Shown one piece after another: positions 39,453 through 46,040 of a stretch of DNA of 64,000 bases. The stretch is from Alcaligenaceae bacterium (lineage in GTDB: Bacteria; Pseudomonadota; Gammaproteobacteria; Burkholderiales; Burkholderiaceae_B): contig CANCMG010000008.1 of NCBI GenBank assembly GCA_947378965.1, positions 1 through 64,000 of the forward strand, given 5' to 3'. The position numbers and the translations under genes are program-made. The notes under the pieces are model-generated. The model was not told the DNA's origin. It worked only from the letters and a program-made list of their open reading frames with translations, and made no database searches. Position 1 is the first letter of the stretch. The number at the start of each line of letters is the position of its first letter.

Positions 39453-41219
39453 TCAGACGCCAGTTGCCCATGTGTCTTTTAAGGTTGTGACGCGATTAAA
39501 AACGGGCTGCTCGAGGGTCGAATCAACCGAGTCGACGGCAAAGTAGCCTAGGCGTTCAAATTGCGACACCACGCCAGCAGTGGCAACCGTACCCGGTTCA
39601 AGCCAGGCCGTGACGCTTTGCGCCGAATTTGGATTCAGGCAGGTCAAAAAGTCGTTGTCTCCAGCATCCGGAAAAGGCTCGGAAAACAGGCGATCGTAGA
39701 GGCGAATCTCGGCAGGGATAGCTTGGGCCGCACTAATCCAAGTCACGGTGCCTTTGACCTTGACGCCATTTGAGCCGGCTGTGCCACTTTTGGTATCGGG
39801 GTTGTATTCGGCATGCACCTCAGTCACTTTACCTGAGGCATCCTTAACAAAGCCTGTGCAAGTGACGACATAGCCGTACTTCAAGCGCACCGAGTTGCCC
39901 GGAAACAGCCTGAAATACTTGGGAGGTGGCACCTCGGCGAAGTCTTCTTGTTCAATCCAAAGTTCGCGGGTAAAGCCAAACTGGCGCTGACCTGCTTGGG
40001 GGTCGTGCGGGTTGCGCGGTGCCTGACAAGGCTCGATCTGACCTTCTGGAAAATTAGTAATGACGAGTTTGAGGGGGTCAAGGATGGCGACCGAACGTGG
40101 GGCAACTGGGTCTTGTACTTCCCTCAACGCCTGATCCAATAAACTGTAGTCAATGCGAGCGTTATTTTTAGACACGCCAGTGCGCTCACAGAACAGACGC
40201 AAGGCTTCGGGGGTATAGCCGCGACGGCGCAACCCCACAATGGTTGGCATGCGTGGGTCATCCCAACCCGTGACGTAGCCCTCTTTGACCAGTTGCAGCA
40301 GCTTGCGTTTGCTGGTCACGATGTAGCTCATGTTAAGCCGTGCAAACTCGTACTGATGCGGTAGAGGGGCTGCCAACTTACCAAGCTCGTGCAGGCGGTT
40401 CAGTGTCCAGTCGTAAAACGGCCGTTGGTCTTCAAATTCGAGCGTGCAGATGCTGTGGGTGATGCCCTCGAGCGCATCTTCGATCGGATGGGCAAAGGCG
40501 TACATCGGGTAAATACACCACATTGCACCAGTACGATGATGGATGGCATGCCGGATCCGGTACAAGACAGGGTCACGCATATTGATATTGGGCGACGCCA
40601 TATCAATTTTTGCGCGTAACGCCATACTGCCGTCTGCATGCTTGCCTTCGCGCATTTCGTTCAGTAAGCGGGTTGAGTCAGCGGCAGGGCGCTCGCGCCA
40701 GGGCGAGTTTTGGCCCGCCTCAGTGAGTGTGCCGCGCATGGCGCGCATCTGCTCGGGGCTTTGTTCGTCAACGTAAGCGTGACCGGCTTGGATTAACGCC
40801 AGCGCGCAGTCATACATCACACCAAAATAATCGCTGGCAAAAAACAGATGCTCGCTGCCATTTGACTGCCAGTTAAAGCCCAGCCACTTGACCGCGTCGA
40901 TGATGCCATCGACGTATTCTTGATCTTCTTTTTCAGGGTTGGTGTCGTCAAAACGCAGATGACACACGCCACCATAGTCGCGCGCCAGACCGAAGTTCAG
41001 ACAGATACTCTTGGCGTGACCAATATGCAGATAGCCGTTGGGCTCGGGCGGAAACCGGGTGCGGATCTTGGCGGGATCGGGCGAACCCGCGGCCTGCACA
41101 GATGCTGGCCCCGGCTGGCCGGCCCAAAGCTTGCCCGCAAAGCGCTGGGCGCCTAGGTCGGCTTCAATAATGTTGCGTAAAAAATTTGTCGTTACCGGTG
41201 AAACAGAGTCTGTCGTCAT
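39453..41219 (-). CDS. glnS: glutaminyl-tRNA synthetase
   Basis: Probable start MTTDSVSPVTTNFLRNIIE; TRFPPEPNGYLHIGHAKSICLNFGLA; KRKL motif (TSKRKLLQLV). Confidence 0.97.
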   Translation of the reverse strand: MTTDSVSPVTTNFLRNIIEADLGAQRFAGKLWAGQPGPASVQAAGSPDPAKIRTRFPPEPNGYLHIGHAKSICLNFGLARDYGGVCHLRFDDTNPEKEDQEYVDGIIDAVKWLGFNWQSNGSEHLFFASDYFGVMYDCALALIQAGHAYVDEQSPEQMRAMRGTLTEAGQNSPWRERPAADSTRLLNEMREGKHADGSMALRAKIDMASPNINMRDPVLYRIRHAIHHRTGAMWCIYPMYAFAHPIEDALEGITHSICTLEFEDQRPFYDWTLNRLHELGKLAAPLPHQYEFARLNMSYIVTSKRKLLQLVKEGYVTGWDDPRMPTIVGLRRRGYTPEALRLFCERTGVSKNNARIDYSLLDQALREVQDPVAPRSVAILDPLKLVITNFPEGQIEPCQAPRNPHDPQAGQRQFGFTRELWIEQEDFAEVPPPKYFRLFPGNSVRLKYGYVVTCTGFVKDASGKVTEVHAEYNPDTKSGTAGSNGVKVKGTVTWISAAQAIPAEIRLYDRLFSEPFPDAGDNDFLTCLNPNSAQSVTAWLEPGTVATAGVVSQFERLGYFAVDSVDSTLEQPVFNRVTTLKDTWATGV

Positions 41220-41290
41220 ACAAGATTTTGAGTATTGAAGCCGTAGTGAAAGGATCATTTTGCCACGACCGGTCTACACTAGCCCAAATC

Positions 41291-42631
41291 ATGGAAATTT
41301 CAGCGCTTTTTCTCGCCCGTGTGCAGTTCGCTTTGAGTCTGAACATGCACGTTCTCTTTGCTGCGCTCGCCATGGCGCTGGGCTGGATTCTGTGTGTGTT
41401 TCGGTTTCGTGCCTGGAAAGCGCCAGACTCTGGCTGGACCAACGCTTACCGGTTTTGGGTCAGGATTTTTGCCTTGTCCTTTTTTTTAGCGTTGGCGACA
41501 GCCTTGCCGGTGCTTGTTGAGTTTGGCACGCTGTGGCCCGAGTTGATTGAACGCACCGGAAACGTGGCCGGTCCCTTGCTGGCCTTTGGCCTCGCCACTT
41601 TTTTTGTCACAAAGTCGCTTTTTATGGGCGTGGTGCTGTTTGGGCAGCGCCGCGTATCAGCCAAAGCGCACTTTTTTGCCGTGCTAATGGTTGCGCTTGG
41701 GTTGACGTTTACGCTGTTTTGGGCGGTCGTGTTGCATACGTGGGCACAGGCACCTGTCGGCGCTGGTTTAATCGACGGACGCTATCAAGTGTATGAATGG
41801 AACGAGATCATCCTGACTCCGTTTGTACTGTGGCGTTCAGTGGGTTTCGTGGCGGGTGCATTTCTGTTTGCTGGCCTGCTCTTGCTTGGCGTGACGGCCT
41901 GGCAGGCCTTGCGCCGCCCGCTAGACGACGGCGAACGTTTGTCGTTTCGCACCGGGTTGCTGGTGTCTGCTTGTGCGCTGATGCTGTACTGGGCTGCCTT
42001 CGATGGCAATGCCAGGATGGTGGCGCGCTATCAACCGGCTGTTGCAGCGGCGCAGATGGGAGTCTGGCAGAGTTCGGCTCCCCCGAGTTGGGTATGGCTA
42101 GGCTCGCCCAATCTGCCTCAGCGTTCGACTGAGGTTTATTGGGCCTCTGAGTTCAACCCTCAGCGGTGGTTAGGCAAGCAGGCAGATGCCAGCGTCGCTG
42201 GGCTGGATCTGACGGGCGAGTTGCTGCCACCCATCGTGCTCTTATTTTGGCTCTTGCGCGCCGCGTTGCTGGCTGGCGTTTTAGCGAGCGTATTGATTCT
42301 CTTGACACTTTTGGTGGGTTTTAGGCAAGGGTTTGAGCCTTCACGTCAGCCGCCGTGGTTGTTGCGTGTGCAAGTATGGGCCGGTGGCCTGGGCGCTTTA
42401 ACGTGGTTGTTCAACTGGAACCTCTCAGACCTGGGGCGATCTCCTTATCTGGTGTGGGGCACTTTGCTGCAGCAAGATGCTTTGAGCGACGTCGCACCGG
42501 TGACGCTTGCCTGGGTGTTGGCAGGAGCAGTCGCCACCTATGCAGTGATGCTAACGGGTTTTATTCAAATGCTTTGGCATGCGGCGCGCTTCGGCGTTGT
42601 CCCAGTGCGTAAACCGGGTGTGCGTCCATGA
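41291..42631 (+). CDS. cytochrome bd-like ubiquinol oxidase subunit I (CydA-like, highly divergent)
   Basis: MEISALFLARVQFALSLNMHVLFAALAMALGWILCVFRFRAW...; CydA-like N-terminus (QFAL..xMHxLF), VEFGTLWPEL, SPYLVWGTLL; immediately upstream of a CydB-like gene. Confidence 0.82.
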   Translation: MEISALFLARVQFALSLNMHVLFAALAMALGWILCVFRFRAWKAPDSGWTNAYRFWVRIFALSFFLALATALPVLVEFGTLWPELIERTGNVAGPLLAFGLATFFVTKSLFMGVVLFGQRRVSAKAHFFAVLMVALGLTFTLFWAVVLHTWAQAPVGAGLIDGRYQVYEWNEIILTPFVLWRSVGFVAGAFLFAGLLLLGVTAWQALRRPLDDGERLSFRTGLLVSACALMLYWAAFDGNARMVARYQPAVAAAQMGVWQSSAPPSWVWLGSPNLPQRSTEVYWASEFNPQRWLGKQADASVAGLDLTGELLPPIVLLFWLLRAALLAGVLASVLILLTLLVGFRQGFEPSRQPPWLLRVQVWAGGLGALTWLFNWNLSDLGRSPYLVWGTLLQQDALSDVAPVTLAWVLAGAVATYAVMLTGFIQMLWHAARFGVVPVRKPGVRP

Positions 42632-43650
42632 TTGATGCACTGGCTGCCTCGTTGGGCCTAAGCGCGAGCCATCCTGCGTTCTGGATGCCTTTGCTGATGA
42701 TGGCCTTGCTCTTTGTTTTAATCGTTGGCGCAGCTCTTTTTGATGGCTTCGATATTGGGGTTGGGGTCTTGGTGCTTTTGGCGCCTCAACAATCACGTTC
42801 GCAGTTGATGGTTGTCTTAAGCCCTTTGCGTGATGCCAATGGTTTTTGGTTGTTATTGGCGCTTGGGTTGTTTTTGACGGCGTTTCCGATGGCGTGGGGT
42901 GCAGTGCTTGGGGCGCTTTATGTGCCAATGTCGTTGACGATGATTGGCGTCATGCTGCGTAGTGTGGCGTTTGAGTTTCGCATTCGGGCAGCGAGCGACA
43001 AGCGCGGTCGCTGGATCGCTTTGTTTTGGCTGGGCTCGCTGTTAACTGCGCTGGGTCATGGCGCTTTAATGTCGCAACTTGTATTAGGCGCTAAAGAAGA
43101 TGCTCCGGCTGTATGGTTTACCGGTTTCATTGCGCTCTGTGCTGTGGCTGGCTATGGTTTGCTAGGTGCCTGCTGGTTGGTGATGCGTTTGCAAAATGAT
43201 TTGCAGTTATTTGCTGCGCACTGGGCGCGTCACGCGATTCGCTGGGCTGCCGCCGGCATGGTCGCGGTCTCGATCGCCTTGGGTTTGGCAAACCCAGCGA
43301 TTTTTTATAAATGGAGTAGTACCACGAATCTTGTCATGGCGGCCCCGATTTGGTTGCTGATGTTGGTGTGTTTTGTGGGCATCGACATGAGTCTGAGTCG
43401 AGTGGTACAGCCGCGCTACCAACATTTGGTGTGGCTACCCTTTACTTTGTGTTTGATTTTATTTTGCGCAATGCTCAGCGGCCTAACGTACAGCATGTTT
43501 CCGTTTGTGGTGCTTGACAATCTTACGCTGTGGGATGCTGCGGCGGCCCCAGGTTCGTTGCAACTGGTGTTGGCCGCCACGGTCGTGGTGTTGCCGATCA
43601 TGGTGATTTTTAATCTGATGACGTACCGGGGTTTGTTTGGTCGCGCTTAA
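42628..43650 (+). CDS. cytochrome bd-like oxidase subunit II (CydB-like)
   Basis: 340 aa; ALFDGFDIGVGVL, DANGFWL, SMFPFVVLDNLTLWDAAAAPGSL. Confidence 0.88.
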   Translation: MIDALAASLGLSASHPAFWMPLLMMALLFVLIVGAALFDGFDIGVGVLVLLAPQQSRSQLMVVLSPLRDANGFWLLLALGLFLTAFPMAWGAVLGALYVPMSLTMIGVMLRSVAFEFRIRAASDKRGRWIALFWLGSLLTALGHGALMSQLVLGAKEDAPAVWFTGFIALCAVAGYGLLGACWLVMRLQNDLQLFAAHWARHAIRWAAAGMVAVSIALGLANPAIFYKWSSTTNLVMAAPIWLLMLVCFVGIDMSLSRVVQPRYQHLVWLPFTLCLILFCAMLSGLTYSMFPFVVLDNLTLWDAAAAPGSLQLVLAATVVVLPIMVIFNLMTYRGLFGRA

Positions 43651-45221
43651 GGAGCGAGTGGTAAGCGAAGCTCGACCTTAAGTCCGCCATGATCAGCAGC
43701 CTGGTCGAGCGTGAGCGTACCGCCATGCGCGGCGGCGATCGCCTCGGCCAGCGCTAAGCCTAAGCCAACGTTACCCGTTCGTGTGCGCGCCTCGTCGAGT
43801 CGTACAAACGGCTTGAGCGCCTCGACACGCCGCTCGGGTGGGATGCCCGGGCCGTGATCTGTTACGGTGAGTACTGCCCAAGTGTCAATAGAGTTCAGAG
43901 AGACCTCGACGGGTGGCGCCCCATGATGTAGCGCGTTGCTGATTAAATTATCAAGCAGGCGCGAAAGCGCCGCGCCATCTGCGCTGACCATGAGCGGCGC
44001 GGGTGTACTCACCAAGACGACCTCATTGCGTGTGCCGCTCCAGTTGGCGACGCGTTCACTCACCCAGTCATTCAGCGCAAATCTCGCAAAATGATAAGTC
44101 GCTGGGTCAGAACCTCGCAGGTACTGAATAAATTGATCCACCATTTGCTGCATGTCTTGCAGGTCTTTGCGCATCCCGTCTTTGAGCGATGTGTCTTCGC
44201 TCATTTCGATGCGTAACCACATGCGCGATAGCGGTGCTTTCAGGTCATGAGGTAACCCTGCTAGCAGTGTGCGACGGGTGGCCTCTGATTGGCTCAGTGC
44301 TTCGAGCATGGCGTTAAAACGCTCACCTAGGCGTTTGATTTCGGCAGGGCCCCCAGGTTCAACGCGCGCGGGCTTTCCGGCAGCCAAACGGTTGGTTGCC
44401 TCGACTAAGTGCGTAATCGGTCGTGTGATGTGCCACGAAAACCATGCGGCTAGCAGCAGTAGCAGGGCAAGCCCGCTGAGCCACCAGATGATGAGCGAAG
44501 TGGCTAAAGGGGGGTCAATCCGATCCAGAGGGATGACCAGCCATTCACGATGGCGAGGTAATTCGGTTTCATTGGGTCGCGTGAGAGAAATATAGATCTC
44601 TGGAATGGGACCGCGTGACAGAGCCACACGGCTGTCCCCGCTTAAACGATTGTTCAAGCGTCCAATCAGCCGTGCAAGTCCACGCCTGACATCGTCCGAG
44701 GCAAACTGTTCGCGTGGTCCGGGTTTTACCGGCGCCAGTGCTTCGGGCTGCTCGGGTGCTGCAAGCGCGGCGGGGGACTCTTTCGGGGCAGCTGGAGCAA
44801 GAGGTGAGGCCTGGTCTGGCGGTCGAGGGCGAGTTGGCTGTGTATTGGGGGCCGAGCCGGGTGTGCGCGGAGCTTGCCCATCCCTTGGTTGGGGCATGCG
44901 CTTGGCCGCCTGTTCGTTTCTGGCGGCTCTGCGTTGAAGTCGAGCGTCGTTGGGCAACGGTTTAGACCACATCCGCCAATGTCCTTGAGAGGCCTGATGC
45001 ACGAACTCTGCTCGCTCAGGCGGGGGCACGTGTTCCATTGAGTACTGCAAAGTACGAATGGTCGTGGCGAGTAAGTCTAACGCCACGGTTTGAGCGTGAT
45101 CACGCTGGTAAATCGACACCAAATATAGGGTTGCGGCCTGACCAGCCAACACCATGGCAAGTACTAATAGCACCAGCCTAGAGCGAAACGACTGTGGCAG
45201 TAAAAACTTGAGCGGGTTCAC
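43647..45221 (-). CDS. sensor histidine kinase (EnvZ-like)
   Basis: HAMP region, H-box LPHDLKAPLSRMWLRIEM, G-box DHGPGIPPERR and GLGLALAEAIAAAHGG; probable GTG start overlapping the response-regulator stop. Confidence 0.92.
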   Translation of the reverse strand: MNPLKFLLPQSFRSRLVLLVLAMVLAGQAATLYLVSIYQRDHAQTVALDLLATTIRTLQYSMEHVPPPERAEFVHQASQGHWRMWSKPLPNDARLQRRAARNEQAAKRMPQPRDGQAPRTPGSAPNTQPTRPRPPDQASPLAPAAPKESPAALAAPEQPEALAPVKPGPREQFASDDVRRGLARLIGRLNNRLSGDSRVALSRGPIPEIYISLTRPNETELPRHREWLVIPLDRIDPPLATSLIIWWLSGLALLLLLAAWFSWHITRPITHLVEATNRLAAGKPARVEPGGPAEIKRLGERFNAMLEALSQSEATRRTLLAGLPHDLKAPLSRMWLRIEMSEDTSLKDGMRKDLQDMQQMVDQFIQYLRGSDPATYHFARFALNDWVSERVANWSGTRNEVVLVSTPAPLMVSADGAALSRLLDNLISNALHHGAPPVEVSLNSIDTWAVLTVTDHGPGIPPERRVEALKPFVRLDEARTRTGNVGLGLALAEAIAAAHGGTLTLDQAADHGGLKVELRLPLAP

Positions 45222-45934
45222 GGCGAAAAGCGGTAGCCGGTACCCCAGACCGTTTGTATCCAACGAGGCTGTTTGGGGTCGTCTTCAAGCGCGCGACGCA
45301 AGCGCAGAATGGCAATATCGATGGCCCGATCATTACGCTCACCAGATTCGTCATCGCGAGCGAGTGTGAGTAGTCGTTCGCGCGAAAGAGGTTTGCCAGG
45401 GTTGCGAACTAAAGCTTCAAGCAGGTTGATTTCACCCCCAGTCAGCTTGACGACTTCAAGGCCGCGCAGCAGTTGGCGCATCACCGGATCAAATGTAAAG
45501 GCGCCAAACTGTACCGGTGCATTTTTGGTCAGGGCCGAGGCACCGCGCTTACGGCGCAGTACGGCTTGAATGCGGGCGAGCAATTCGCGTGGGTCAAACG
45601 GCTTGCCTACATAGTCATCGGCGCCGGCCTCAAGGCCGATAATGCGGTCAACGGATTCGTCGCGCGCGGTCAACAGAATGACAGGGATGTCTTCACCTTG
45701 CGTGCGCAGGGCGCGGCACGCCTCGGCCCCGTCACCCCCAGGCATCATGCGGTCAAGCACGATCAGTTCGGGGGCAAACCGTAAGATACGCGCAGCGAGA
45801 TCGGTCGCGTCAGGTGCAAGCAGGGTGTCAAAGCCATGCTTGTTCAGATAATCAGCGAGTAGTTGGCGCAGAGCAGGGTCGTCGTCGACCACTAAAATCT
45901 TGATGCGCGGTTCAGTGCCAGTTCGAGAGTCCAT
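45218..45934 (-). CDS. OmpR-family response regulator
   Basis: ILVVDDDPALRQLLADYL, VLDRMMPGGDG, winged-helix C-terminus LRRALEDDPKQPRWIQTVWGTGYRFSP. Confidence 0.94.
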   Translation of the reverse strand: MDSRTGTEPRIKILVVDDDPALRQLLADYLNKHGFDTLLAPDATDLAARILRFAPELIVLDRMMPGGDGAEACRALRTQGEDIPVILLTARDESVDRIIGLEAGADDYVGKPFDPRELLARIQAVLRRKRGASALTKNAPVQFGAFTFDPVMRQLLRGLEVVKLTGGEINLLEALVRNPGKPLSRERLLTLARDDESGERNDRAIDIAILRLRRALEDDPKQPRWIQTVWGTGYRFSP

Positions 45935-46040
45935 AGCTAGAGTGTGCAACGCGCCGCGATTTTGGGCAAGCGGCTTGAAATCAATTGAAATGATCTTCTG
46001 CGCGCGCGTGCACCCTGAGCCAATCCCCTACAATACCGGC

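Follow-up and report, generated by a model that had tools for sequence, protein, structure and literature searches.

A cytochrome bd-like gene pair of the Alcaligenaceae, probably a pseudo-cytochrome bd that has lost most heme-ligand and proton-path residues

Introduction

Does a CydAB-like gene pair whose CydA appears to have lost most of its heme-ligand, proton-path, and quinol-site residues still encode a quinol oxidase? This question is raised by a locus in the window, the 64,000-nucleotide stretch of an Alcaligenaceae contig (CANCMG010000008.1) analyzed here, for which an initial annotation had proposed such a loss.

The CydAB-like pair belongs to the cytochrome bd family

The pair and its flanking genes are arranged as follows.

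39453..41258, minus strand: glnS, the divergent neighbor
41291..42631, plus strand: cydA-like gene (putative pseudo-CydA), 446 amino acids; PF01654, E = 7e-82
42628..43650, plus strand: cydB-like gene, 340 amino acids; PF02322, E = 1e-51
43647..45263, minus strand: EnvZ-type histidine kinase (HAMP, HATPase), convergent; positional counterpart of Bordetella RisK
45218..45949, minus strand: OmpR-type response regulator; positional counterpart of Bordetella BP3222

The two plus-strand genes overlap in an ATGA, the cydB-like start lying within the cydA-like stop, and the PF01654 and PF02322 matches span the two products over their whole length. A Foldseek search with the AlphaFold model of the CydA-like subunit (pLDDT 89, pTM 0.89) revealed the bd oxidase subunit I 7ose_A (E = 1e-19, TM-score 0.88). 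By fold and sequence, the window pair belongs to the cytochrome bd protein family, and the initial annotation was right to see a CydAB-like pair here. The solved proteins nearest to the window protein in fold and sequence, Mycobacterium smegmatis bd-II qOR-2 (9r2g) and E. coli bd-I/bd-II, are, unlike it, heme-loaded oxidases with a full ligand set. The CydA-like protein scores far under the cut-offs of the NCBI equivalog models for cydA, and the window genome encodes a further CydA, a canonical one in which every ligand is present.

Heme-ligand, proton-path, and quinol-site residues are changed

In bd structures, heme b558 is ligated by a His and a Met, while a conserved Glu and His ligate the high-spin hemes (PMC8951039); the proton wire (H-channel) seen by cryo-EM in E. 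coli comprises Lys53, Lys57, CydB Asp105, CydB Asp58, Glu107, and Glu74 (PMC13189123). Residues of the window protein were mapped by a MAFFT alignment to E. coli K-12 CydA and about 90 homologs, and by phmmer alignments to PDB chains. The assignment of the heme ligands to the E. coli residue numbers used below is established. Tallies compare 54 non-redundant sequences of the clade to which the window protein belongs with 32 canonical CydA sequences. The aligned positions are:

41348..41350, plus strand: His20, aligned with E. coli CydA H19 (high-spin heme ligand); kept in the window's genus
41588..41590, plus strand: Gly100, aligned with E99; lost in 54/54 clade members
41612..41614, plus strand: Lys108, aligned with E107; Lys in 53/54 and Arg in 1/54 clade members versus Glu in 32/32 canonical sequences
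41843..41845, plus strand: Gly185, aligned with H186 (b558 ligand); His absent from 54/54 clade members
42263..42265, plus strand: Ala325, aligned with M393 (b558 ligand); Met retained in only 4/54 clade members
42428..42430, plus strand: Asp380, aligned with E445 (b595 ligand position); Asp or Glu in nearly all members of the window's genus, gone in most other genera
42829..42834, plus strand: CydB-like Arg68-Asp69, aligned with E. coli CydB W57-D58

Both b558 ligands of a quinol oxidase (His186 and Met393) are missing from the window protein (G185 and A325), as are E99 and E107, where the proton path to heme d ends (G100 and K108), and the quinol-site residues K252 and E257 (V251 and M256). 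The remaining CydA proton-wire positions are also changed (K53 to R54, K57 to R58, E74 to L75). D239, R391 (R323), and R448 are retained, and of the high-spin heme ligands H20 is kept and D380 stands at the E445 position, whereas both are missing in most other genera. The retention of H20, D380, R323, and R448 makes a partial heme site possible in the window protein.

The proposed loss of most heme-ligand, proton-path, and quinol-site residues is borne out at E99, E107, H186, M393, K252, and E257, and the initial annotation had correctly read H19 as retained and H186 as replaced by Gly. It had given Phe and Thr for E99 and E107, which is off by one, and Leu for M393; the losses stand, the identities do not. 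Its claim of Phe for E445 fails, since E445 is the Glu of VAEYGRQPW, not that of LFLVAELFLMF, and aligns with Asp380 of NWNLSDLGRSPY. Its inference that hemes b558 and b595 could not bind as in E. coli holds for b558, both of whose axial ligands are gone with no His or Met at their positions, and does not hold for b595, at whose ligand position the alignment places a carboxylate, Asp380.

This earlier register error is the kind of evidence that would favor an ordinary bd oxidase with its ligands in another register. We consider such a reading highly improbable: the model superimposes on bd structures with a TM-score of 0.88, and no nearby conserved His, Met, or Glu substitutes for H186, M393, or E99. 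Misregister with the ligands present was rejected on the agreement of phmmer and MAFFT, gap-free in the helices concerned. Furthermore, columns of the clade alignment with at least 75% His, Met, or Cys held no convincing relocated ligand among those newly conserved; canonical CydA often has H127 and a Met near 114 as well, and H430 is close to the C-terminal end.

The loss defines a clade in the Alcaligenaceae

A 19-row profile matched 196 of the 230 genomes of the window's family, the Alcaligenaceae, some of these matches being canonical CydA; counted by hand among the matches listed, at least 147 of the 230 carry a clade member adjoining glnS, and locus comparison placed glnS beside clade members whose contigs reach it. 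In protein searches, identity to the window protein is graded among relatives from 91% down to 35%.

Across the tallied sequences, E99, E107, and H186 are lost in every clade member and M393 in 50/54, while E99, E107, H186, M393, and E445 are kept in 32/32 canonical CydA; this ligand loss is far beyond chance. E257 is gone in every clade member with a letter at that column, and K252 is variable. New residues have become invariant in the clade (K108, R58, L75, P73, and W181). H19 survives in 16/54 members and Asp or Glu at 445 in 17/54, chiefly in the window's genus.

Within that genus, H19 and D/E445 are kept in nearly all aligned sequences even though CydA identity falls to about 50%, which suggests that they are under constraint, and R391 and W441 are retained as well. 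Such a pattern would suit a protein that is still an O2-reactive hemoprotein, in which H20 and D380 hold two high-spin hemes without b558 and which either takes electrons from a non-quinol donor or senses or scavenges a gas (O2, NO). However, E99 and E107, which serve proton delivery to heme d, are lost even in this genus, and two loci of the same genus depart from the pattern, L031 being without H19 and L026 having Gln at 445. Moreover, a function shared by the clade cannot need H19 or E445, because both are gone from other genera whose synteny and partner are the same. We therefore regard the hemoprotein reading as unlikely.

To look beyond the family, we used a DNA pattern around K108 that matches 46 of 62 known members (74% recall) and 0/32 canonical sequences; applied to about 320 genomes from the class and about 385 from the order, it returned no non-family member, but at this recall a distant one could escape. 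Non-family profile matches at 300–390 bits are member-like by score, and all those checked (L035, L037-L040, and L125-L127) keep every ligand. Elsewhere in the order, the top profile matches score lower, and every one inspected proved canonical.

Several loci stand apart. L109 (G213) keeps H19, M393, E445, and GRQP, has E99 changed to Ala, E107 to Lys, and H186 to Ser, and shows min and kinase genes rearranged around the locus; it looks like an early intermediate. In L088 and L096 (genus g31), the CydA-like protein is shortened (an open frame of about 393–402 amino acids) and extremely diverged, retains Lys at 107, and adjoins glnS and a CydB-like gene. Two loci with CydA 88–89% identical to that of the window (L004 and L006) lie in metagenome bins titled Candidatus Methylopumilus and Bordetella parapertussis, titles that are probably wrong.

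Descent, selection, and the CydB subunit

Both trees, one of CydA and one of CydB, recover the clade as monophyletic (SH-aLRT 100); they are quick trees in which the long branches L076, L088, and L096 are of uncertain placement. In both, the sister of the clade is a canonical pair with all ligands present (L100/L101, genus g36), which is a candidate for the ancestral type. The L100/L101 CydAB carry Arg at position 57.

Open frames are intact in the window and in the great majority of relatives, and pairwise dN/dS between related species is 0.07–0.11 for CydA and 0.04–0.07 for CydB; purifying selection acts on the pair. Of 1817 clade pairs, 97% show higher conservation in CydB than in CydA, an inversion of the usual order, which holds in all but 6% of 464 canonical pairs. 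The partner had been described as intact, and indeed clade CydB keeps D26, D29, D58, R100, an acid at 105 (E105), and R107. W57, an otherwise invariant Trp, is Arg in 60/61 clade sequences.

These data bear on whether the pair is an oxidase decaying toward a pseudogene, as the lost catalytic residues, the very degenerate short forms in g31, and frameshifts in B. pertussis cydB3 could suggest. Against decay speak the intact frames, dN/dS values below 0.12, the occurrence in many genera, and the invariant new residues, and so does CydB, whose conservation measured against that of CydA exceeds what true oxidases show. Decay is contradicted for the family as a whole and has, in our judgment, hardly any likelihood; a pseudogene reading was rejected on the intact frames and dN/dS of 0.04–0.11.

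The clade includes Bordetella cydAB3

The deletion primers published for B. pertussis risK (PMC5020355) allowed the clade to be linked to a studied locus. All four primer sites map in one genome, G136, beside a clade member at the cydAB3 position, and the start-to-start distance there is 1337 nt versus about 1338 nt implied by the published deletion. The G136 cydB-like gene is interrupted by a run of 11 G at which the frame shifts (L102:6523-6533), with intact copies in related species; BB4011/BP3224, the cydB of the locus, has a variable G/C tract (PMC1891110), and BB4012-BB4011 is cydAB3 (PMC11257404). The primer sites, the spacing, and the frameshifted G tract together place cydAB3 in the clade. 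H19 and E445 are also lost in the G136 member.

The literature counts cydAB3 among eight oxidases and classes it as high-affinity (PMC11257404). In the same study, construction of a B. bronchiseptica strain with cyd3 as the sole oxidase failed, cyd3 deletion gave no growth or infection phenotype, cyd3 transcripts were at the level of silent genes, and cydB3 was broken in 7/14 B. pertussis strains (PMC11257404). Since half of the strains examined have a broken cydB3, the function of cydAB3 is dispensable in B. pertussis. These results fit a non-oxidase without proving one, and the negative ones are weak because cco, cio, and other presumably real oxidases behaved likewise.

A pseudo-cytochrome bd as the best explanation

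We propose, with a probability of roughly 0.72, that the pair is a pseudo-cytochrome bd, namely a heme-poor or heme-free membrane module that would handle quinones or ions instead of acting as a bd-type quinol oxidase. That the pair is a non-oxidase is very likely. On this view the clade arose once, within the lineage leading to the window's family, from a canonical cyanide-insensitive-type (CIO-type, short Q-loop) bd oxidase. Because b558, the entry for quinol electrons, would be missing, bd-type turnover would not occur. In most genera the protein probably carries no heme; that of the window's genus may retain one or two high-spin hemes at H20 and D380.

CydB may be the working half, being better conserved than CydA and keeping the acidic residues (E116, D69) at which the proton channel opens to the cytoplasm. 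The exchanges E107 to Lys, K57 to Arg, and CydB W57 to Arg might convert the inner end of this channel to a network of ion pairs buried between the A and B subunits, for which we propose K108 with CydB D69/E116 and R68 as partners. We hold a CydB-centered function to be plausible at slightly less than even odds. More tentative, and rather unlikely as stated, is a non-respiratory, family-wide complex in which the bd heterodimer has turned into a heme-free device with CydB doing the work, in quinone or ion sensing or transport and possibly feeding a RisK-type kinase.

Compared with CIO-type bd oxidases (L100/L101, L001), the clade has the same fold, A-B gene order, length, and helix layout, shares the GR.P[YW] motif in part, and shares the CydB acidic residues. 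It differs in the loss of E99, E107 (replaced by Lys or Arg as tallied above), H186, M393, and E257, in a CydA that evolves faster than CydB, and in the near or complete absence of O2-reductase residues from most genera. The clade nests beside canonical Burkholderiales CIO-type CydA in a tree built without OR-N and OR-C sequences. Papers citing Murali et al. 2021 describe the OR-C and OR-N families and CydAA' as bd-superfamily members without a quinol site and as O2 reductases. These families reportedly keep their active-site hemes. The window clade differs in its ordinary CydB partner and in its nesting beside CIO-type enzymes that oxidize quinol. Our literature search, outside which the Murali 2021 superfamily classification lay, found neither a characterized clade with the same substitutions nor an earlier account of such a pair, and priority cannot be claimed.

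If the heme-free device reading were true, this would be a branch of the bd superfamily that gave up the superfamily's heme core. Because its sequence matches those of terminal oxidases, the pair is entered as an oxidase in genomes across the whole family, as with Bordetella cydAB3; if it is not one, reconstructions of respiration, lists of drug targets, and the interpretation of genetic results have to be revised. Within the clade, ligand loss runs in natural steps, from L109 (H19, M393, and E445) through the window's genus (H19 and D/E445) to most others (none), which lets one ask what role CydB has once catalysis is removed.

Genomic neighborhood and the adjacent two-component pair

The synteny of the family is minD-minC-glnS-cydA'-cydB'. 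The EnvZ/OmpR-type pair that had been noted downstream is real and a conserved neighbor in many, not all, relatives. Its adjacent and convergent position in many of them invites the reading that the pseudo-oxidase is a sensor partner, which would read a quinone, redox, or ion state and signal to the kinase (RisK/BP3222); the part of PMC5020355 available gives no input signal for RisK. However, the kinase pair is not adjacent in L032, L034, L108, L111, L113, L117, and L076, has been relocated in L109, and shares no operon with cydA'B'; a stable region alone may keep neighbors together. A sensor partnership is thus quite unlikely in our estimate. In L032 and L034, genes for a ClC-type channel-like protein and a predicted secreted beta-rich protein, recognized by eye from the sequence, replace the kinase pair in the interval between cydB' and recQ; these extra genes are not widely shared.
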